From: Caldisphaera lagunensis DSM 15908
Lineage (GTDB): Archaea; Thermoproteota; Thermoprotei_A; Sulfolobales; Acidilobaceae
Length of the DNA: 64,000 bases
Assembly: GCF_000317795.1 (NCBI RefSeq)
Contig: NC_019791.1
Location: 930,001 to 994,000 of the forward strand
Direction: 5' to 3'
The translations under genes and the position numbers were made by a program. Position 1 is the first letter of the stretch; each line of letters opens with the position of its first letter. Positions 47,005 through 62,976 of this stretch are shown in pieces. The notes beneath the pieces are model-generated. The model did no database searches. It was given only the letters and a program-made list of their open reading frames with translations, and was not told the DNA's origin.

Positions 47005-47213
47005 TATACATTTAATATAAATTTTTAATTAATTAAAAATAAGAAAAATTCTTTATTATATTGTAATGCAGGATTTGAACTTATGGGATTTAATAAATGT
47101 AAAATGAAACTCCAGTAAGTTAGTAGTTCAGTTTATTTTATATGCATTTTTACCTCTCATTAATTTATATAAGTGTGTTTTTAGTACAAATTAATTAGTG
47201 GGGTGGGATAATA

Positions 47214-49964
47214 TTGGGTAGGAAAGATAGATCCTTATCTAAAGGCGCGTTATATGGAATAATAATCGTAATTATCGTGGTAATTATTGTTGGAGGAGTA
47301 GCAGCATATTATGCAACTAAAAAGCCTATAACTACAACAAGTACTACTACATCATCTACAACAACATCAACTGCTACAACCACTACAACAAGTACTACTA
47401 CATCCATAACCTCAACAACTCCAACAACATTTTCAACATTAAGTCCAGTTGCAACATCAACATATGCATCAGTAGCAGGAACACCAATTAACTTTGTATT
47501 ATCATCATTTACCCCATCAAGCAATAGATATGCATTATTCTATGCAGGTAATGGGAAAGTAATAAACACAACATCACAATACGTTAATGTAACCTATAAT
47601 TATCCAGGTCATTATTTAGTTTATTATAATGTATATCAAAGCGGTTCATTAATGGGTTCTTCATTAAGTAATTTAATAGAAATAACAGTAGCACCAAATG
47701 TACCATCAAGCCTATCAGATTTAGTTACAGTTCCAACAATTACATTTAACATAACAAGAAATCCAACAGCACCAATTTTCTCAACAGGTGAAACAGTTTA
47801 TTTATCAGGAGGATTTTTGCAACCACCATCTGGTCAAAACATGACAATATATGAATATGTATGGAACTTTGGTAATGGTCAAACAATGACTGTTATGGCA
47901 AACCAAACAACATTATTACCTGAAGAAAACCCAGTTAATGTAACTTATTCTTCACCAGGATTATATGCTGTATCATTAACAGTAATAACTAAAAACGTTT
48001 CATCTGGGAAAACATATAACTATACAACATATCAAAGCATTGCAGTATCAGGCATAAATATGGCATTTTCATTATTTGAGTTTTCAAGTAGTGTACCAAA
48101 CCCAGGTGTTATACAAGTAGCAGAAAATCAACCTGGAGGTCCTTATTCTTTAGATCCCGATATAGATTATGAAGTAGTAGGATTTGAGGTGATAGCAAAT
48201 GTTTACCAGACATTGCTATTATATAATGGATCAAACACAACATCATTTATACCATATGCTGCAGCAGAGGTTCCTACTGTACAAAATGGCTTGATAAAAA
48301 ATAATTATACTGAATATATATTTCCAATAAGATCTGGATTGTATTTCTCTAATGGAGATCCTGTAACTGCTTATGATGTATGGTATTCAATAATTAGGGC
48401 CTTATTATTTGTTGGGGGATTACCAGGAACTCCTGATTGGATAATTGCACAATATTTAATACCTAATGTAACTGCAGGTGTTCCCATAGTCTCATCACCT
48501 AATGATACCCAAGCATTTGAAGAAATAATGAATTCTGTTACTTATAATAATCAAACAAATGAAGTTATATTTCATTTATGGAGGCCTACTGCCCCTCAGG
48601 CCTTATATACCGCATTAGCTGATCCATTAAGCACTGGTATATTAGACGCTAAATGGTTAGAACAAGTTGGAGCAGGAATTAATTTCACTCCAGCTGGATT
48701 TTATCAATATGAGCAGCAAGCAAATGTTGGTAATTATAACCAAGTTGTAGAATGGAGTCCTATGGGTTCAGGACCATATATGGTTAAATCATTATCACCG
48801 GGACAAAGTATTGTTTTAGCTCCTAATCCATACTATCCAGGACTTCCTGATATACCTAAACCAAATGATACTGTTATAATATATTGGGTTAAAGATCCAA
48901 ACACTGCATATGAAATGTTTGCATCTGGACAAGCTGATATCTTAGAAGATATACCAACACAATATATACCTTTGGTTGAGCAATTAGAAAGCAAAGGACA
49001 GGCAAAGATTTACACATTCCCTGCTTTAACTGAGCTGTTTTATGTATTTAACGCTAATATAAGCCAACCAAACCTAAAAGCTTTAGGTGCACAATACTCA
49101 ATACCTTCATATTACTTTGCTAATCCATTGGTTAGAAAAGCATTTGCATATGCATTTAATTATACAGAATATCTAAATGATATATTAGGTGATGTTAAGT
49201 ATCATTTTGATTTTGGCAATTATTATTGTGGAGTTATAATACCTGGATTACCAAATTATATTCCACCAACGGAGCTAACAGGTTGTCCAACATTTAACTT
49301 AACATATGCAAAGCAATTAATGGAAGAATCTGGATTTTATAACATATCAGTAAACTTCCCAATCGTAATATTTAGTGGTGATATAACTGATTTTACTGGA
49401 GCACAGATGTGGAGCCAACTATTAAATGAAATGGATCCAAACATAAAGGCAACACCCATTTATATGCCCGGATCAACTATGATGTCTTACTGGGTACCTG
49501 GATTAAATGGACAACCTATATTTACTGGTGGATGGATAGCAGATTTCCCACTAGATTCTGATTTTACAAATGCTATGTATTTACAGGGAGGGTTCTTCCC
49601 AGCTGCTGCTGGTTGGAATGTATCATACTTTGAAAACCTAAGCAAATACTTTGCATCCCAAGGTAATTCCTATCTTGCAAATCTATTTGCTAATGAGTCT
49701 CAAGAATATGAAGAATTGAATAATTTAATAAACTTGGCAAATAATGCTGCTTTATCTGGAAATAACGCTTTGGCTGCTAAATATTATAAAGAGGCCGAAC
49801 AAATAGCAGTTAACTTATATTTATATGTCTACACTTATCAAGAGAATATGTATTGGATAATAAAACCATATATGATACCATATAAAAATCAAATAAGTTA
49901 TCAAGAAAATCCAATGATAGGAGGCGGAGGGGATTCTCTATTCTATTGGTGGTTTAAGGGATAA
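47214..49964 (+). CDS. PKD-containing family 5 solute-binding protein
   Basis: A 916-residue extracellular protein. Residues 1-36 are a basic leader plus helix (GALYGIIIVIIVVIIVGG) ending AYYATKKP, shared with the sugar-binding protein at 29534. A Thr/Ser stalk (37-72) leads to two PKD/Ig-like domains (about 80-160 and 180-285; the second has YVWNFGNGQT and the strand PGLYAVSLTV). A family 5 (oligopeptide/dipeptide-type) binding domain fills about 300-910. The usual permease and ATPase genes are absent nearby. TTG start after GGGGTGGGA. It may bind peptides or oligosaccharides, as several archaeal members do. Confidence 0.85.
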   Translation: MGRKDRSLSKGALYGIIIVIIVVIIVGGVAAYYATKKPITTTSTTTSSTTTSTATTTTTSTTTSITSTTPTTFSTLSPVATSTYASVAGTPINFVLSSFTPSSNRYALFYAGNGKVINTTSQYVNVTYNYPGHYLVYYNVYQSGSLMGSSLSNLIEITVAPNVPSSLSDLVTVPTITFNITRNPTAPIFSTGETVYLSGGFLQPPSGQNMTIYEYVWNFGNGQTMTVMANQTTLLPEENPVNVTYSSPGLYAVSLTVITKNVSSGKTYNYTTYQSIAVSGINMAFSLFEFSSSVPNPGVIQVAENQPGGPYSLDPDIDYEVVGFEVIANVYQTLLLYNGSNTTSFIPYAAAEVPTVQNGLIKNNYTEYIFPIRSGLYFSNGDPVTAYDVWYSIIRALLFVGGLPGTPDWIIAQYLIPNVTAGVPIVSSPNDTQAFEEIMNSVTYNNQTNEVIFHLWRPTAPQALYTALADPLSTGILDAKWLEQVGAGINFTPAGFYQYEQQANVGNYNQVVEWSPMGSGPYMVKSLSPGQSIVLAPNPYYPGLPDIPKPNDTVIIYWVKDPNTAYEMFASGQADILEDIPTQYIPLVEQLESKGQAKIYTFPALTELFYVFNANISQPNLKALGAQYSIPSYYFANPLVRKAFAYAFNYTEYLNDILGDVKYHFDFGNYYCGVIIPGLPNYIPPTELTGCPTFNLTYAKQLMEESGFYNISVNFPIVIFSGDITDFTGAQMWSQLLNEMDPNIKATPIYMPGSTMMSYWVPGLNGQPIFTGGWIADFPLDSDFTNAMYLQGGFFPAAAGWNVSYFENLSKYFASQGNSYLANLFANESQEYEELNNLINLANNAALSGNNALAAKYYKEAEQIAVNLYLYVYTYQENMYWIIKPYMIPYKNQISYQENPMIGGGGDSLFYWWFKG

Positions 49965-56695: not shown

Positions 56696-57125
56696 TTTTA
56701 TCACCAACTACTTTTAATCAATAAAAGTTTTTATTTGAAAGTTAATATTTTTTAATTTTTCTGAGAAAAAACATATACAAAATTATGTGTTTCAAATATT
56801 AAAATTATAATGACAAAAAGGCTAAAAATTACCAATCTTTTTATACTCCTATGAGATAGGATATCTAGATCTATGAAATAATCATTTAATGATTCCACTA
56901 TTATCTCTTTCTATTAATTAAGTAAAGGTAACATTTAACATAATTAAAATAATAGAAAAACAACTAGAAATCATTCCCAACCTGCTTGCATTATGATACC
57001 TTCTTTCTTTATAATAAAAATCTTATGAAATCTGAAAGATAAAAATATAAATCTTATTACTGTAAAAATAGCTGTTTGACTTAAAATGTGAAAGGAATCA
57101 ATAAAAATCATAAGAGGGTGGGAGG
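56696..57125. other. Divergent promoter region
   Basis: AT-rich. A TATA-like element for the MFS gene lies near 57043-57053 (AAAATATAAAT), which would give a leader of about 50 nt ending in the G-rich tract at 57116-57131. The ferredoxin promoter lies at the left end. Nothing else recognised. Confidence 0.45.
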
Positions 57126-57131
57126 GTGGGG
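57116..57131 (+). promoter_or_regulatory. Four-run G tract (G-quadruplex motif) over the start codon
   Basis: GGGTGGGAGGGTGGGG has four runs of three or more G separated by single bases, a canonical, very stable G-quadruplex motif. The GTG start codon (57126-57128) lies inside it. It also offers several ribosome-binding-like GGGTGGG words, so it could be simply a strong Shine-Dalgarno region, or an RNA switch. Confidence 0.6.
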
Positions 57132-58391
57132 ATAAAGCTATACAAAGATAATTGGATGTATGCATTAATACCTTATAATATAGCCATGGGGCCTCTATCT
57201 ACACTTATAACATTGCAAATATTAAGATTGGGAGGGAATGTAATAGATGTTGCATATACTATTTCATTAGCAAATCTAACCAGTATTATAGGATCATTAA
57301 TATGGGGATTTGCAGCAGATTATTTTGATAGGAAAAAACAAATATTGTTAAGCCTATCTACAGTTGGGTTAACTTTAGTAGCTATCTCATATACTAAATC
57401 AATTAGTCTAATAGAAATTTTATATTCTATACTATCATTCTTAAATACTGCAAGCTCCACACCATTATCTCTACTAATAATGAGCACAGTAAGAAAAGAT
57501 TTGTGGGCGTCCAGTTATGCAAAATTAAACTATTTGTCATCAGTAGGATATTTGATAGGCCTTTTAGGGTCTTCCTTATTAGCTATATATTTTAAGCTTG
57601 ATTTTATAGTGATACTAATGGGAATACTAGTCTTAATTTCGTTTGGATTATCTTATTATTTTATACCAAAGCCAGAATTACATATTGAAAGAACAGCACT
57701 ACTTCATAACCTAGAGTCATTCTTAATTAGATTAAAACAGATACCAACCATTTTCATTCATTTTCCTTCAAAATATTCATTTAAGATATTTTCTTTATCT
57801 AGGTTAAAATCTTTAGTTTCTGCTTACGTCCCTCTTCTATACATTGGTATGTTCTTATTTTACATTGCATCAGGTATTTTCAATACAGAGTATCCAGCAG
57901 GACTAAAAGAGGGAGGACTTTCAAATAGCCTAATTTTAATAATATTTTCAATTGGCATGTTATTCCAAATAATTTCCTATTACTTATCCCCTAGATTTAT
58001 TAATAAATTAGGAAAGGCTAGAACTTCATGGATCTCATTGCTTATGAGGGGATCTTCGTATTTTATTATTGGACTCTTAACTGTTATAATAGCTAATAAG
58101 ATATCATTAATTTTATCTGGTATAATATTTTATCCTATAGCAGCAGGACTTGCATTTTCAGCATTTTATACAGCATCAAGCATAATGATATTTGAGATAG
58201 TGAAAAGCGGTAAGGAAGGTTCTACTTTAGGAGTCTATAGCACGCTAACAGGTATTGCTATGACATTAGGTTCATTCGTTTCAGGCTATATGGTTAGATA
58301 TATGGGTTTTGGATTTACTTACATAATAGCTGGTATAATATTATTATTTAATGTATATATATTTAAAACAATTGAAAGATTACCTAGATAA
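57126..58391 (+). CDS. MFS transporter (paralogue 1)
   Basis: A 421-residue, 12-helix MFS protein. The loop after helix 2 holds WGFAADYFDRKKQILLSLS (motif A, G-x3-D-x2-D-R-K type). The N-terminus KLYKDNWMYALIPYNIAMGP is closely matched by the protein at 59041 (KYNDKWMYTLIPYGMGFMP), and helix 11 EGSTLGVYSTLTGIAMTLGS also matches, so the two are tandem duplicates separated only by the SSB gene. The central loop (about 195-225) is basic. Start GTG lies within the G tract. Substrate unknown. Confidence 0.85.
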   Translation: MGIKLYKDNWMYALIPYNIAMGPLSTLITLQILRLGGNVIDVAYTISLANLTSIIGSLIWGFAADYFDRKKQILLSLSTVGLTLVAISYTKSISLIEILYSILSFLNTASSTPLSLLIMSTVRKDLWASSYAKLNYLSSVGYLIGLLGSSLLAIYFKLDFIVILMGILVLISFGLSYYFIPKPELHIERTALLHNLESFLIRLKQIPTIFIHFPSKYSFKIFSLSRLKSLVSAYVPLLYIGMFLFYIASGIFNTEYPAGLKEGGLSNSLILIIFSIGMLFQIISYYLSPRFINKLGKARTSWISLLMRGSSYFIIGLLTVIIANKISLILSGIIFYPIAAGLAFSAFYTASSIMIFEIVKSGKEGSTLGVYSTLTGIAMTLGSFVSGYMVRYMGFGFTYIIAGIILLFNVYIFKTIERLPR

Positions 58392-58429
58392 TTCCATATT
58401 AGCTTATTAACATCTGTCCCAACTAATAT

Positions 58430-58846
58430 TTGGCGAAAGAATTGAAGGTAAATGAGTTAGCGCCTAAAAGCGCTGTTGAGGAAATAAGTGTAAAGGTCAT
58501 AAAGGTATCAGAGCCAAGGAATGTTTTTGGTAAAGATGGTATGTCACACAAGGTTTCTGATGTCTTAGTTGGGGATGAAAGTGGAACAATAATTATGACT
58601 TTATGGGATAATTCGATAAACAAAGTAAAAGAAGGAGAAACAATAAACATAAAGAATGCCTTTGTTTCTACATTTAAAGGAAGCATGAGACTCTCTTTAA
58701 ATAAAAACAATGGGTCAATAACGGTTTCTGAAAAGGAAATCGAAAATGTAAATACAGGTAATAATATGTCAGACAAGGTTGTTGAAGAAGAAAGGAGAAG
58801 TTATAGCAGTTATGGTAGAAAACCATCATATAGAAAAAGATACTAA
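58430..58846 (+). CDS. ssb: Single-stranded DNA-binding protein, crenarchaeal OB fold
   Basis: A 138-residue protein matching Sulfolobus-type SSB: one OB fold (about 5-105) with VKVIKVSEPRNVFGKDGMSH, the strand VGDESGTIIMTLWDN (aromatic W), EGETINIKNAFVSTFKGSMR and LNKNNGSI, then a short flexible tail rich in Arg/Ser/Tyr. The Sulfolobus tail is acidic at its end; here it is basic (SYGRKPSYRKRY), so protein partners may differ. TTG start. It lies between two MFS paralogues. Confidence 0.93.
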   Translation: MAKELKVNELAPKSAVEEISVKVIKVSEPRNVFGKDGMSHKVSDVLVGDESGTIIMTLWDNSINKVKEGETINIKNAFVSTFKGSMRLSLNKNNGSITVSEKEIENVNTGNNMSDKVVEEERRSYSSYGRKPSYRKRY

Positions 58847-59040
58847 TAAAATTTTTATTTACAATTTTTATAAAATATTATCTTGAATTTTAATTATTTA
58901 TGATTAAGACGTAATGTAAAACGAATATTATATTTTCCTTTAAAAATTATTTTTGCAATATGTTATTTATAATATAATATTGAATTCTTATATTACCAAA
59001 TTATTAATTAAGTTAATGAGGCATAAGAAAGGGACAATAG

Positions 59041-60306
59041 ATGGAAAAAATAAAATACAATGATAAATGGATGTATACTTTAATACCATATGGCATGGGA
59101 TTTATGCCATTTTTAATAATGCTTCCCTTGCTTATTTTAAAACTAGGAGGAAATGCAATAGATATATCATATACAGCAACTTTAGGAAACATAACCTGGA
59201 TTATTGGATCTTTTGTTTGGGGATACATATCAGATTATTATGATTTGAAAAAACTAACCATATTAGGTTTATTAACAAGTGGACTATTTGTAATACCTAT
59301 GGCATATGCTAAATCTGTGGTGGAAGTTGAAATTTTATATGGCATTTGGAGTTTCTTTAATACGGCTCTTATAATCTCGTTATATTTAATAATTATAAAA
59401 ACTTTTGCAAAAGAAATGTGGGTAATTGAGAACGCTAAATTAAATTTTTTGAATACAATTGGTTATTTATTAGGCTTTCTTGGATCTTCTGCCTTAGCAA
59501 TTTATTTTAAAGTTAACTTTTTAATTTTAATGACTGGCATCTTAATGACGTTATCTTCCTTACTGTCTTATTATTTTTTACCTAAAATTGAAAATAATCA
59601 TAAAGAGTTATCATGGATTAACGTCTTAAAATCTTTCTTAATTAAAATAAGAATTATGTCTAAGATTTTTAACCCTTCATTCTTAAAGATTTCATTAAAA
59701 AAAGCCTTCGATTTCAAGAACAAAAAAATACAAAATATGCGTATCATTCTTTTATATACGGGAAATTTTTTGTTCTATTTGTCCTATGGAATTATCTTAA
59801 CTCAATATTCTGCTAGTCTAAAAATTTATGGTATATCTGATAGCATAATTTTAGCGATTTTCTCCTTGGGTACATTTTCCCAAATAATTTCTTTTTATTT
59901 TTCTCCTAGATTCATAAATACATATGGAAAAATAAGGGCTTCTTGGATTACACTATCATTAAGGGGGATTTCTTTTTTCATGATAGGGTTATCAATGTTT
60001 TTGTTTCTCAACAAAACTTATCTAATTTTATCACAATTTGTCTTTTATTCTTTAGGTGGAGGTTTAGCTTATTCCATATTTTTTACAGCAGCGAACGTAA
60101 TGGTTTTAGAAACTACTAAAACAGAAAAAGAAGGATCAACATTAGGGATTTATGAAACATTAATAGCTTTTGGCTTTACAATTGGATCTTTTATATCAGG
60201 TTATATGATTAATTATACAGGATTTCCCATAACTTTCATAATAACTGGCATTTTGATAATAATTAATTCAGCAATATTTAAGATAATGGAAGAAAAACAA
60301 AAATAG
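59041..60306 (+). CDS. MFS transporter (paralogue 2)
   Basis: A 421-residue, 12-helix MFS protein of exactly the same length as its paralogue at 57126, with motif A as WGYISDYYDLKKLTILGLL and helix 11 EGSTLGIYETLIAFGFTIGS. Divergence is greatest in the central basic loop (about 180-230). ATG with AAAGGGA upstream. The pair arose by tandem duplication or insertion of ssb between copies; substrates are unknown. Confidence 0.85.
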   Translation: MEKIKYNDKWMYTLIPYGMGFMPFLIMLPLLILKLGGNAIDISYTATLGNITWIIGSFVWGYISDYYDLKKLTILGLLTSGLFVIPMAYAKSVVEVEILYGIWSFFNTALIISLYLIIIKTFAKEMWVIENAKLNFLNTIGYLLGFLGSSALAIYFKVNFLILMTGILMTLSSLLSYYFLPKIENNHKELSWINVLKSFLIKIRIMSKIFNPSFLKISLKKAFDFKNKKIQNMRIILLYTGNFLFYLSYGIILTQYSASLKIYGISDSIILAIFSLGTFSQIISFYFSPRFINTYGKIRASWITLSLRGISFFMIGLSMFLFLNKTYLILSQFVFYSLGGGLAYSIFFTAANVMVLETTKTEKEGSTLGIYETLIAFGFTIGSFISGYMINYTGFPITFIITGILIIINSAIFKIMEEKQK

Positions 60307-60380
60307 TTTTTATTATTGAATTTTCCTTTTAAGATAAACTTATTAATTTCCAGATAATTATAAGTTCTCTTGGGGTTGGA

Positions 60381-61727
60381 TTGGAGGATAAAGTAAACAC
60401 ACTTTTATCTCTAGGTGCTGATTTTGCTGACATTAGATATATGAAAATAAAGACTTTGGTAGCTGATAGTAGTGAAATAAGAAATATAATAACAAATAAT
60501 GGTATATCTGAAGGGTATGCATTAAGGGCATTATATAAAGGAAATTTTGGATACAAGTTTACAACAAATCTTGAAAATGTAGATCTAAAAGATGTAATAT
60601 CTCTTGCAATAGGTAAAGGAGAAACTAAGGTGTATCAACTTAAAGAAAAGAAGGATAGAATTATTATTAAAGAAAAATACCCAAACTATAAGAAACCTGA
60701 AGAGATAATTTATGATATATCAAAAATAAAAGATGATATATTTAAATCAGATAAAAGAATAAAATCAGTTAACATAAGGTTTTCAGAAAACTCAATAGAA
60801 AAAAGATATGCAAGCAGTGATAACAGGTATATTGAGGTTAATTATAAGATAACCTCATTGTCTATCTCAGTTGTTGCTAAAGAAAACGATATAAATGCAA
60901 GCGCCCATATTTCTCTTTCTACATACTTAGGATATCCATTAGAAGTTTTTGATATAAATGAATCTATAGAAAAAGTATTGAATAGAGTTTCAAAGCAACT
61001 AATAGGAAAACCTGCAAAAGCTGGTGAAGCTAGAGTTATTTTATCTCCTGAAGTAAGTGGTGTATTTGCTCATGAGGCTCTTGGTCATTTAGCTGAAGCA
61101 GATTTAGCAGCTTCTGGAGTTTTAGGAAAAATGAAAGGGAAGAAAATTGCTAAAGAATTTGTAAATGTTTCCGATTCACCATTTTTAGAATATCCAACAG
61201 CTATTGGGATAACTCCTTATGATGATGAAGGAGTAGAAGGTAGGGAAGTTAAAATTATTGAGAATGGTGTTGTTAAAGAATTTATGAATAACAGAACCTA
61301 TGCTTTCTATACAAACGAATTACCATCGGGAAATGGAAGATCCGAAGATTTTAGGAGCAGTATTTTAATAAGAATGAGAAATACATATTTTAAACCAGGA
61401 AAATCAAGCTTAGAAGAAATGATGGAAGATATAAAAGAAGGATATTTAATGAGCTCGGTATTAGGAGGTCAAACTAGTTCTGATGGTACTTTTCAATTTG
61501 GCATAGAAGAAGGATATAAAATTGAAAATGGCGAAATTAAATACCCCTTAAGAAACGTTGGAATAGCAGGTTATACATTAGATACATTATCTCAAATTTC
61601 TGACATATCAAAAGATTTTGCTGTTTGGCCTGGTGTTTGTGGAAAAATGGGTCAAAGAGTCTATGTAGGTACTGGTGGTCCATATGTTAAGGTTGAAAAA
61701 ATTAAAGTTGGTGGTGTAAATGAGTGA
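60381..61727 (+). CDS. tldD: TldD metalloprotease subunit
   Basis: A 448-residue TldD protein. The zinc-binding motif HEALGHLAEAD (HExxxH) is intact near residue 232, followed by GVEGREVKIIENGVVKEFMN and the glycine-rich LGGQTSSDGTFQFGIEEGY. TldD/TldE form a heteromeric protease that degrades unfolded or modified peptides; TldD carries the active site. TTG start (60381) near GGGGTTGGA. Its end overlaps tldE by 8 nt. Confidence 0.94.
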   Translation: MEDKVNTLLSLGADFADIRYMKIKTLVADSSEIRNIITNNGISEGYALRALYKGNFGYKFTTNLENVDLKDVISLAIGKGETKVYQLKEKKDRIIIKEKYPNYKKPEEIIYDISKIKDDIFKSDKRIKSVNIRFSENSIEKRYASSDNRYIEVNYKITSLSISVVAKENDINASAHISLSTYLGYPLEVFDINESIEKVLNRVSKQLIGKPAKAGEARVILSPEVSGVFAHEALGHLAEADLAASGVLGKMKGKKIAKEFVNVSDSPFLEYPTAIGITPYDDEGVEGREVKIIENGVVKEFMNNRTYAFYTNELPSGNGRSEDFRSSILIRMRNTYFKPGKSSLEEMMEDIKEGYLMSSVLGGQTSSDGTFQFGIEEGYKIENGEIKYPLRNVGIAGYTLDTLSQISDISKDFAVWPGVCGKMGQRVYVGTGGPYVKVEKIKVGGVNE

Positions 61728-62976
61728 AGAATTAAGCTTTATTATAAAAAAGGCTTTAAATGATAAAATTGATGCTGAAATTTTTCATAGTAAAATAAAA
61801 ATATTTGAAATTGCTAATGATAAAAATGAACAACATGGTATGACATATGAAGAAGACGGTTATGGCTTAAGAATAATAAAAAATAAAAAATTAGGATTTT
61901 CTTATGGGAATAAAATTTCTGATGATTTATATGAACTTGCTGTTAGTTCATCAAATGCATCTAAAGAAGATAACGCTAATTACCTTCCAAACGAAGAAGA
62001 AGTAACAAGATTAAATGGTATATTTGATGAAGAAATATATAACCCTATTGATAAACTAAAATACTATATGGAATCTCTAGGATCTATATCAGATAAACTT
62101 AATTTTATAAACCAAAGAGCTATTGCTGGATATACAATAATAGAAATAATGAATACAAATGGGTTAAATGTCAATTCAAAGACATCATTTATATACGTAG
62201 GGGCAGTTGCTAATTATTTGGGAGATGAAGTAGGACCTGAGATTTTTGAGGGTATTTCATCAAAGCGTTTTAATGATATTAATATAGAAAAATTATTAAA
62301 TGATCTTACATTTAAGATAGATATAATGAAGAAAAGAAGGAAGTTTGAAAACAAAAAGAAGCAATACAATGTAATTTTTACTCAAAAAGCGTTAGATGAT
62401 CTTGTTGTCCCATTAATTAATCATGGAATTAGTTTAGAAAGTTATTATAGGAATAGGACGCCATTTAAATTAAATGACTATTTTGAATCAAAAGTAACTA
62501 TAGTTGATGATCCATTAAATCCTTACTTGCCTTGGTCAAGAGAAATTGATGCAGAAGGACTACCATCTATGAAAACTGAAATAATTAAGGAAGGAGTTTT
62601 CAAAAAATTCTTATCTAATACTTATTGGTCTAAGAAAGCAAACATGGATAATACACATTCAGCTTTTAGAGCATTTACTTCTTTACCTGTAATTTCTACA
62701 AGCAACTTGGTTTTTCAAGGGAAAATAATAAATGAAGATAGCGACGCAATTTATATAGATCAAGTCCAAGGAGTACATACTAGCAATTTTGAAACAGGAG
62801 ACTTTAGTGTTTCAGCAAATGTTGCATGGGATAAAGATGGAGGATTCAGAGAAATAATTGTTTCAGGAAACATAAAACAGCTCATCAATAATGTTTTAGG
62901 GTTTACAAAAGATGTATCATCATATAATAAAGTTTATTCTGGAAAGATGATAGTAACGGGGTTAAGCTTGGCATAA
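61720..62976 (+). CDS. tldE: TldE (PmbA) protease partner subunit
   Basis: A 418-residue TldE/PmbA homologue, without the HExxxH motif, as expected for the non-catalytic partner. Family segments: KNKKLGFSYGNKISDDLYEL, NVIFTQKALDDLVVPLI and the C-terminal VQGVHTSNFETGDFSVSANV followed by DKDGGFREIIVSGNI. ATG overlaps the end of tldD, so the subunits are made together. Confidence 0.92.
   Translation: MSEELSFIIKKALNDKIDAEIFHSKIKIFEIANDKNEQHGMTYEEDGYGLRIIKNKKLGFSYGNKISDDLYELAVSSSNASKEDNANYLPNEEEVTRLNGIFDEEIYNPIDKLKYYMESLGSISDKLNFINQRAIAGYTIIEIMNTNGLNVNSKTSFIYVGAVANYLGDEVGPEIFEGISSKRFNDINIEKLLNDLTFKIDIMKKRRKFENKKKQYNVIFTQKALDDLVVPLINHGISLESYYRNRTPFKLNDYFESKVTIVDDPLNPYLPWSREIDAEGLPSMKTEIIKEGVFKKFLSNTYWSKKANMDNTHSAFRAFTSLPVISTSNLVFQGKIINEDSDAIYIDQVQGVHTSNFETGDFSVSANVAWDKDGGFREIIVSGNIKQLINNVLGFTKDVSSYNKVYSGKMIVTGLSLA

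Follow-up and report, generated by a model that had tools for sequence, protein, structure and literature searches.

RNA G-quadruplexes (G4s) that overlap ribosome-binding sites (RBSs) are known as synthetic constructs in E. coli, where Wieland and Hartig and Holder and Hartig placed them at or near the Shine-Dalgarno (SD) sequence and where they are expected to compete with anti-SD pairing and to lower translation. Position decides the effect: a G4 located 20 bp upstream of the start codon cuts E. coli translation, reportedly because pairing of the SD is blocked (Holder and Hartig, cited in PMC11087576), and a G4 well upstream of the RBS raises translation according to PMC11087576. Natural G4s are also on record in bacterial mRNA: PMC8191793 summarises the rG4-seq work of Shao et al., which mapped 168 sites in E. 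coli and 161 in P. aeruginosa, and describes effects of bacterial RNA G4s (rG4s) in either direction. In archaea, CD showed short-loop G4s with G4Hunter scores >1.7 to remain folded at 80 C (PMC7565180), and G4s were detected in Haloferax DNA and RNA, with Thermococcus comparable (PMC12873603). Masking of the SD and start codon in cis is familiar from RNA thermometers such as ROSE and fourU (PMC8346122). It is an open issue whether prokaryotic mRNA G4s are selected regulators or tolerated accidents, because GC-rich genomes carry thousands of candidates.

In the present study, we analysed a 64,000-nucleotide stretch of the thermoacidophilic archaeon Caldisphaera lagunensis DSM 15908 (the window; contig NC_019791.1, positions 930,001 to 994,000). 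An initial annotation of this DNA had described a perfect G4 motif at 57116-57131 with the GTG start of an MFS transporter gene inside it, and both the window sequence and ORF 57126-58391 bear this out. The tract, GGGTGGGAGGGTGGGG, spans the SD, the spacer, the GTG start (57126) and the Gly codon 2 of the gene (Table 1). Its four runs each have three or more Gs and are separated by short loops, as in the canonical motif (G3+N1-7)x4. G4Hunter scores the 16-mer at 2.69 and the best 25-nt window at 1.80. The tract is also an imperfect 8-nt tandem repeat, GGGTGGGA followed by GGGTGGGG. An RBS-occluding rG4 is one whose G-runs take in the SD and/or the start codon, as those of the tract do; by its sequence features the tract belongs to this class, with a putative function as such.

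Table 1. Coordinates of the tract, its parts and the neighbouring genes in the window.
Feature	Position	Strand	Details	Basis
G-quadruplex motif GGGTGGGAGGGTGGGG	57116..57131	+	loops T, A, T	sequence
Shine-Dalgarno (SD) part of tract, GGGTG	57116..57120	+	-10 to -6	16S 3' end, G frequency, duplex energy
GGAGG spacer, SD to start	57121..57125	+	-5..-1; G-rich where genus usually A/T	
GTG start codon and GGG (Gly) codon 2	57126..57131	+	both within tract	GTG and GGG in all three orthologues
MFS transporter, 421 aa	57126..58391	+	GTG start in tract	Pfam MFS_1 E 2.2e-23
Ssb-like OB-fold protein gene	58430..58846	+	next downstream; TTG start	Pfam PF21473 E 1.2e-15
Paralogous MFS transporter	59041..60306	+	48% identical; ordinary ATG start; no G4; internal control	

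A search of the transporter against NCBIfam returned no model up to its cut-off. The GTG at 57126 is supported as its start because an in-frame stop lies 15 nt upstream, both in the genome itself and in that of the congener G001, because the protein read from the GTG has the same length as the paralogue (59041-60306) read from its ATG, and because the residues preceding Met11 are similar in the two (YKDNW in the transporter, YNDKW in the paralogue). A wrong start codon was ruled out: the next in-frame start, ATG 57156, lies 24 nt past the tract, the residues preceding it are conserved, and the stop stands at -15. The in-frame stop in the two genomes likewise excludes an in-frame extension upstream. 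The start region of the paralogue at 59041 lacks the tract, as the initial annotation had stated.

A search of both strands of the genome (1,546,846 bp) finds no GGGNGGGNGGGNGGG other than the tract. Within the window there is one occurrence vs none in 100 dinucleotide shuffles. A third-order Markov model of both strands gives an expectation of ~0.011 per genome, and a position-specific model, which uses the base composition observed position by position at 159 starts with orthologue support and so includes the G-bias of the SD, gives ~0.0005 over 1,500 start sites. The GC content of the genome is 30.2% (464 kb sampled), and in the same 464 kb the tract is the sole place with even three G-runs at loops of 1-3. 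The earlier judgement that such a tract is extremely unlikely by chance in AT-rich DNA holds, with one per genome observed against ~0.0005-0.01 expected. Assembly error was ruled out as its source because three separately assembled genomes share the tract. Second to the tract in G4Hunter score on the plus strand of the window (1.56) is GGGGTGGGATAATATTG at 47200-47214, a GGGTGGG-type SD before a TTG start, with two adjacent runs only.

Orthologues of the transporter were found in two congeners, G004 (88% protein identity) and G001 (83%). In both, the 16-mer is identical at 16/16 positions at the same orthologous start, which is also the place of the one GGGNGGGNGGGNGGG in each of these genomes; the upstream intergenic DNA, unlike the tract, is poorly alignable between the orthologues. 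A search for the exact 16-mer in 214 genomes of the order gave no occurrence beyond the three orthologous starts. Two further congeners, one of them the more distant G003, have neither the tract nor a detectable transporter orthologue, and the homologues in other genera (~41-44% identical) have starts without the tract. Searching genome contigs for orthologues returned the same two congeners, and a search of viral contigs returned none. The conservation rests on three orthologues, all of one genus; within that genus the motif is conserved beyond expectation, and the check that the initial annotation had named, conservation in orthologues, comes out in its favour, with 16/16 in all three that are known. 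That the tract is kept at the same gene in both relatives having that gene suggests a built-in control of expression rather than an accident. This conservation cannot separate a G4 from a need for the plain sequence, because the loops are conserved too and the three sequences are identical.

How much of the tract an ordinary RBS would explain can be read from the other starts of the genus. The 16S rRNA ends 3' in ...GGATCACCTCCTTT, and G frequency around confident starts is highest at -11 to -8 (0.41-0.53; n=159). Complementarity to the 16S tail at the usual distance of the genus is found for GGGTG at -10..-6, which covers part of the tract only. The predicted duplex with the anti-SD is -9.6 kcal/mol for -14..-1 and -11.2 kcal/mol for -14..+6. 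Over -10..-1, 24 of 89 genes are identical to their counterparts in G004, and 4 of 78 to those in G001 (target included). The first G-run is unremarkable, because SD regions are often conserved in the genus and GGGTG sits at the G-frequency peak. The remainder of the tract is less ordinary. At -5..-1 the 159 confident starts have G at 0.13-0.22 and A at 0.44-0.55; spacer Gs elsewhere are kept in G001 in 23/54 cases (43%), and those of the tract are kept 4/4 in both congeners. Similarly, GGG glycine codons elsewhere are retained as GGG in 40/208 cases in G004 and 23/166 (14%) in G001, and among the five GGG codons of the transporter gene codon 2 alone is kept, the other four having changed in both relatives. 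Taking -10..-1 and codon 2 together, 11/11 start-window Gs are kept in both congeners; the average is 71%. Start 60381, second to it in G-richness among those sampled, retains 6/8 Gs in G004 and 4/8 in G001. This G-rich start of a TldD-like gene (GGGGTTGGATTGGAGG, 60369-60390), half of whose Gs are lost in G001, is a natural control. For the part outside the SD, namely the four spacer Gs and the GGG codon, the chance of such retention is ~0.005 for G001 alone, a rough figure that assumes independent sites and comes from a small sample. On these sequence comparisons, the tract is real, rare and conserved more than an RBS accounts for. The alternative offered in the initial annotation, overlapping ribosome-binding words, fits the first run, where GGGTG stands at the SD position, and does not fit the G-rich spacer and the conserved GGG codon 2.

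With G4 energies included, the minimum-energy structure that ViennaRNA predicts for each of the three orthologues is a G4, at 37 C as well as at 75 C. At 75 C the energies are -11.2, -11.2 and -11.6 kcal/mol vs 0.0 without the G4, from parameters that are crude at high temperature. The same calculation predicted no G4 at the start of the paralogue. G4 folding at 75 C is thus a prediction of the model, and the genus is described as growing at up to 85 C (PMC3654644).

The Ssb-like gene adjoins the transporter gene in G004 and G001 as well. In G003 the SSB gene is present and the transporter was not found, so that the SSB gene is not tied to the tract; there, a divergent GcvH-like ORF precedes the SSB gene in the place of the transporter (L095 973-1900). 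A GCTTATTAA-like box lies ~25 nt upstream of the SSB TTG start (window 58400-58430), with similar boxes in G003 (AGCTTATTAATTAAG) and G001, and from the sequence the SSB gene looks leaderless, with its own promoter. The order MFS, SSB, MFS paralogue and two consecutive ORFs is kept in the genus (window 57126-62976; L034 7960-13901; L045 4592-8960), with the paralogue missing in G001; the two ORFs, of ~450 and 420 aa, look like TldD/TldE. Learning a TATA motif from starts without an SD gave no convincing model, and neither a TATA box nor a transcription start site (TSS) could be placed for the transporter gene. The codons of the tract are transcribed. The first G-run might lie outside the mRNA, since the transcript 5' end could fall downstream of it.

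We tentatively favor, at slightly less than even chances, a selected tract in which the SD, spacer, start codon and codon 2 of the transporter gene together would form one three-tetrad, single-base-loop G4 that limits or gates initiation. The G4 would form in the mRNA soon after transcription, persist at growth temperature, and be in competition both with pairing to the 16S anti-SD and with binding of the initiator tRNA, so that initiation on this transporter would be held low. Translation would proceed only once a ribosome-associated factor, a helicase or a single-strand-binding protein opens the G4, or if the 30S subunit binds first. We favor a brake or gate on initiation because ViennaRNA predicts the G4, archaeal motifs of similar G4Hunter class remain folded at 80 C, and a G4 near the start reduces translation in E. 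coli; in vivo formation of the G4, its effect on translation, the direction of that effect and any regulating signal are what we infer. On the folding model, a thermosensor is less plausible than a brake that is always on or a gate that a helicase or binding protein would operate. The initial annotation had thought of a thermostable translation switch, and temperature as its signal is not supported, with about -11 kcal/mol still predicted at 75 C; the structure should remain folded throughout the growth range, which makes a thermometer unlikely. The benefit of an inhibitory structure on the transporter start is unproven. As for origin, a GGGTGGG-type SD probably underwent an 8-nt tandem duplication in the common ancestor of the three species, and the resulting tract has been retained since. 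Such an SD is seen elsewhere in the window, in GGGGTGGG at 47200-47207, the apparent SD before TTG 47214. Slippage duplication of this kind would be a simple origin, and the later conservation would need a separate cause.

The strongest rivals are constraint on the words alone and an effect at the DNA level, on the non-template strand. Under the former, which is a real possibility if a less probable one, GGGTG serves as the SD, the tandem duplication is fortuitous and the G4 potential incidental; the spacer and GGG codon would have been kept by chance, or strong anti-SD pairing along the stretch would set initiation strength. The position of GGGTG at the usual SD distance, the use of the same kind of word before the TTG at 47214 and the frequent conservation of SD regions in the genus agree with this, as does the possible pairing of the 16S tail with the later tract noted above (-11.2 kcal/mol). 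However, the start-adjacent GGAGG is too near to act as an SD, pairing there would cover the start codon, and the Gs outside the SD are retained far more than elsewhere in these genomes. Even if selection acted on the words only, the RNA would be predicted to fold as a G4. At the DNA level, a G4 or R-loop on the non-template G-strand just downstream of the promoter might alter transcription of the transporter gene or pause RNA polymerase near the start. The coding strand does carry the tract, with the divergent promoter region (56707-57126) nearby, and enhancement of transcription by a non-template G4 is reported in PMC11087576. We nevertheless consider this improbable: three of the four runs match translation landmarks (SD, start, codon 2) exactly, a DNA element would need none of these, and there is the failure to place a TATA box or TSS.

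Recognition of the linear G-rich sequence by a protein, be it one that regulates the transporter gene or the single-strand-binding protein encoded beside it, would account for the invariance of all 16 bases including the loops, and an Ssb-like OB-fold protein is encoded next to the transporter in all three species. Yet there is one such site per genome, and the SSB gene occurs also in G003, where no such transporter was found; we regard this explanation as quite unlikely. The tract additionally opens an overlapping upstream frame, GTG GGA GGG TGG GGW TAA (57118-57135; GGA as its fifth codon in the window), which might attenuate the main frame through competing initiation. All three species have this frame together with its stop, but the TAA follows necessarily from (A/T)TA AAG, which are conserved codons in the main frame, no SD precedes 57118, and the frame has five codons only. 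A role for it is very improbable, and it is probably a by-product of the tract.

Three AT-rich genomes that carry one single-base-loop G4 each, at the same start codon and in diverged surroundings, make a clean small case for the question of selection, with the tract-free paralogue as its internal control. The case bears also on how thermophiles handle structures that heat will not melt. A wider reading, which we consider possible but doubtful, is of a natural archaeal riboregulator that works above 70 C, in which the SD, start codon and codon 2 would be the core of a hyperstable G4 and translation would need active unfolding or a signal such as K+.

The tract shares with the synthetic E. coli quadruplexes the placement of a G4 by the RBS. 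Those quadruplexes are engineered, whereas the Caldisphaera tract is natural and occurs in three species of one genus of a high-temperature archaeon; it differs further in that its G4 core includes the start codon and codon 2, with an effect that is here putative. With the bacterial mRNA G4s it has in common a predicted rG4 in a prokaryotic mRNA that may affect expression, but the rG4-seq sites (PMC8191793) lie in coding regions, and the Caldisphaera tract lies over the translation initiation region. It falls in the same short-loop, parallel-type class as the archaeal G4s that persist at 80 C (PMC7565180, PMC12873603), studies that provide genome-wide motif counts and folding validation and whose main texts contain neither Caldisphaera nor the phrase 'start codon'. 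RNA thermometers are weak hairpins that melt near growth temperature, and a three-tetrad, single-base-loop G4 should not. Taken together, these comparisons point from the synthetic E. coli constructs to a candidate for a natural, genus-conserved archaeal case of an RBS-overlapping G4, which would be new.
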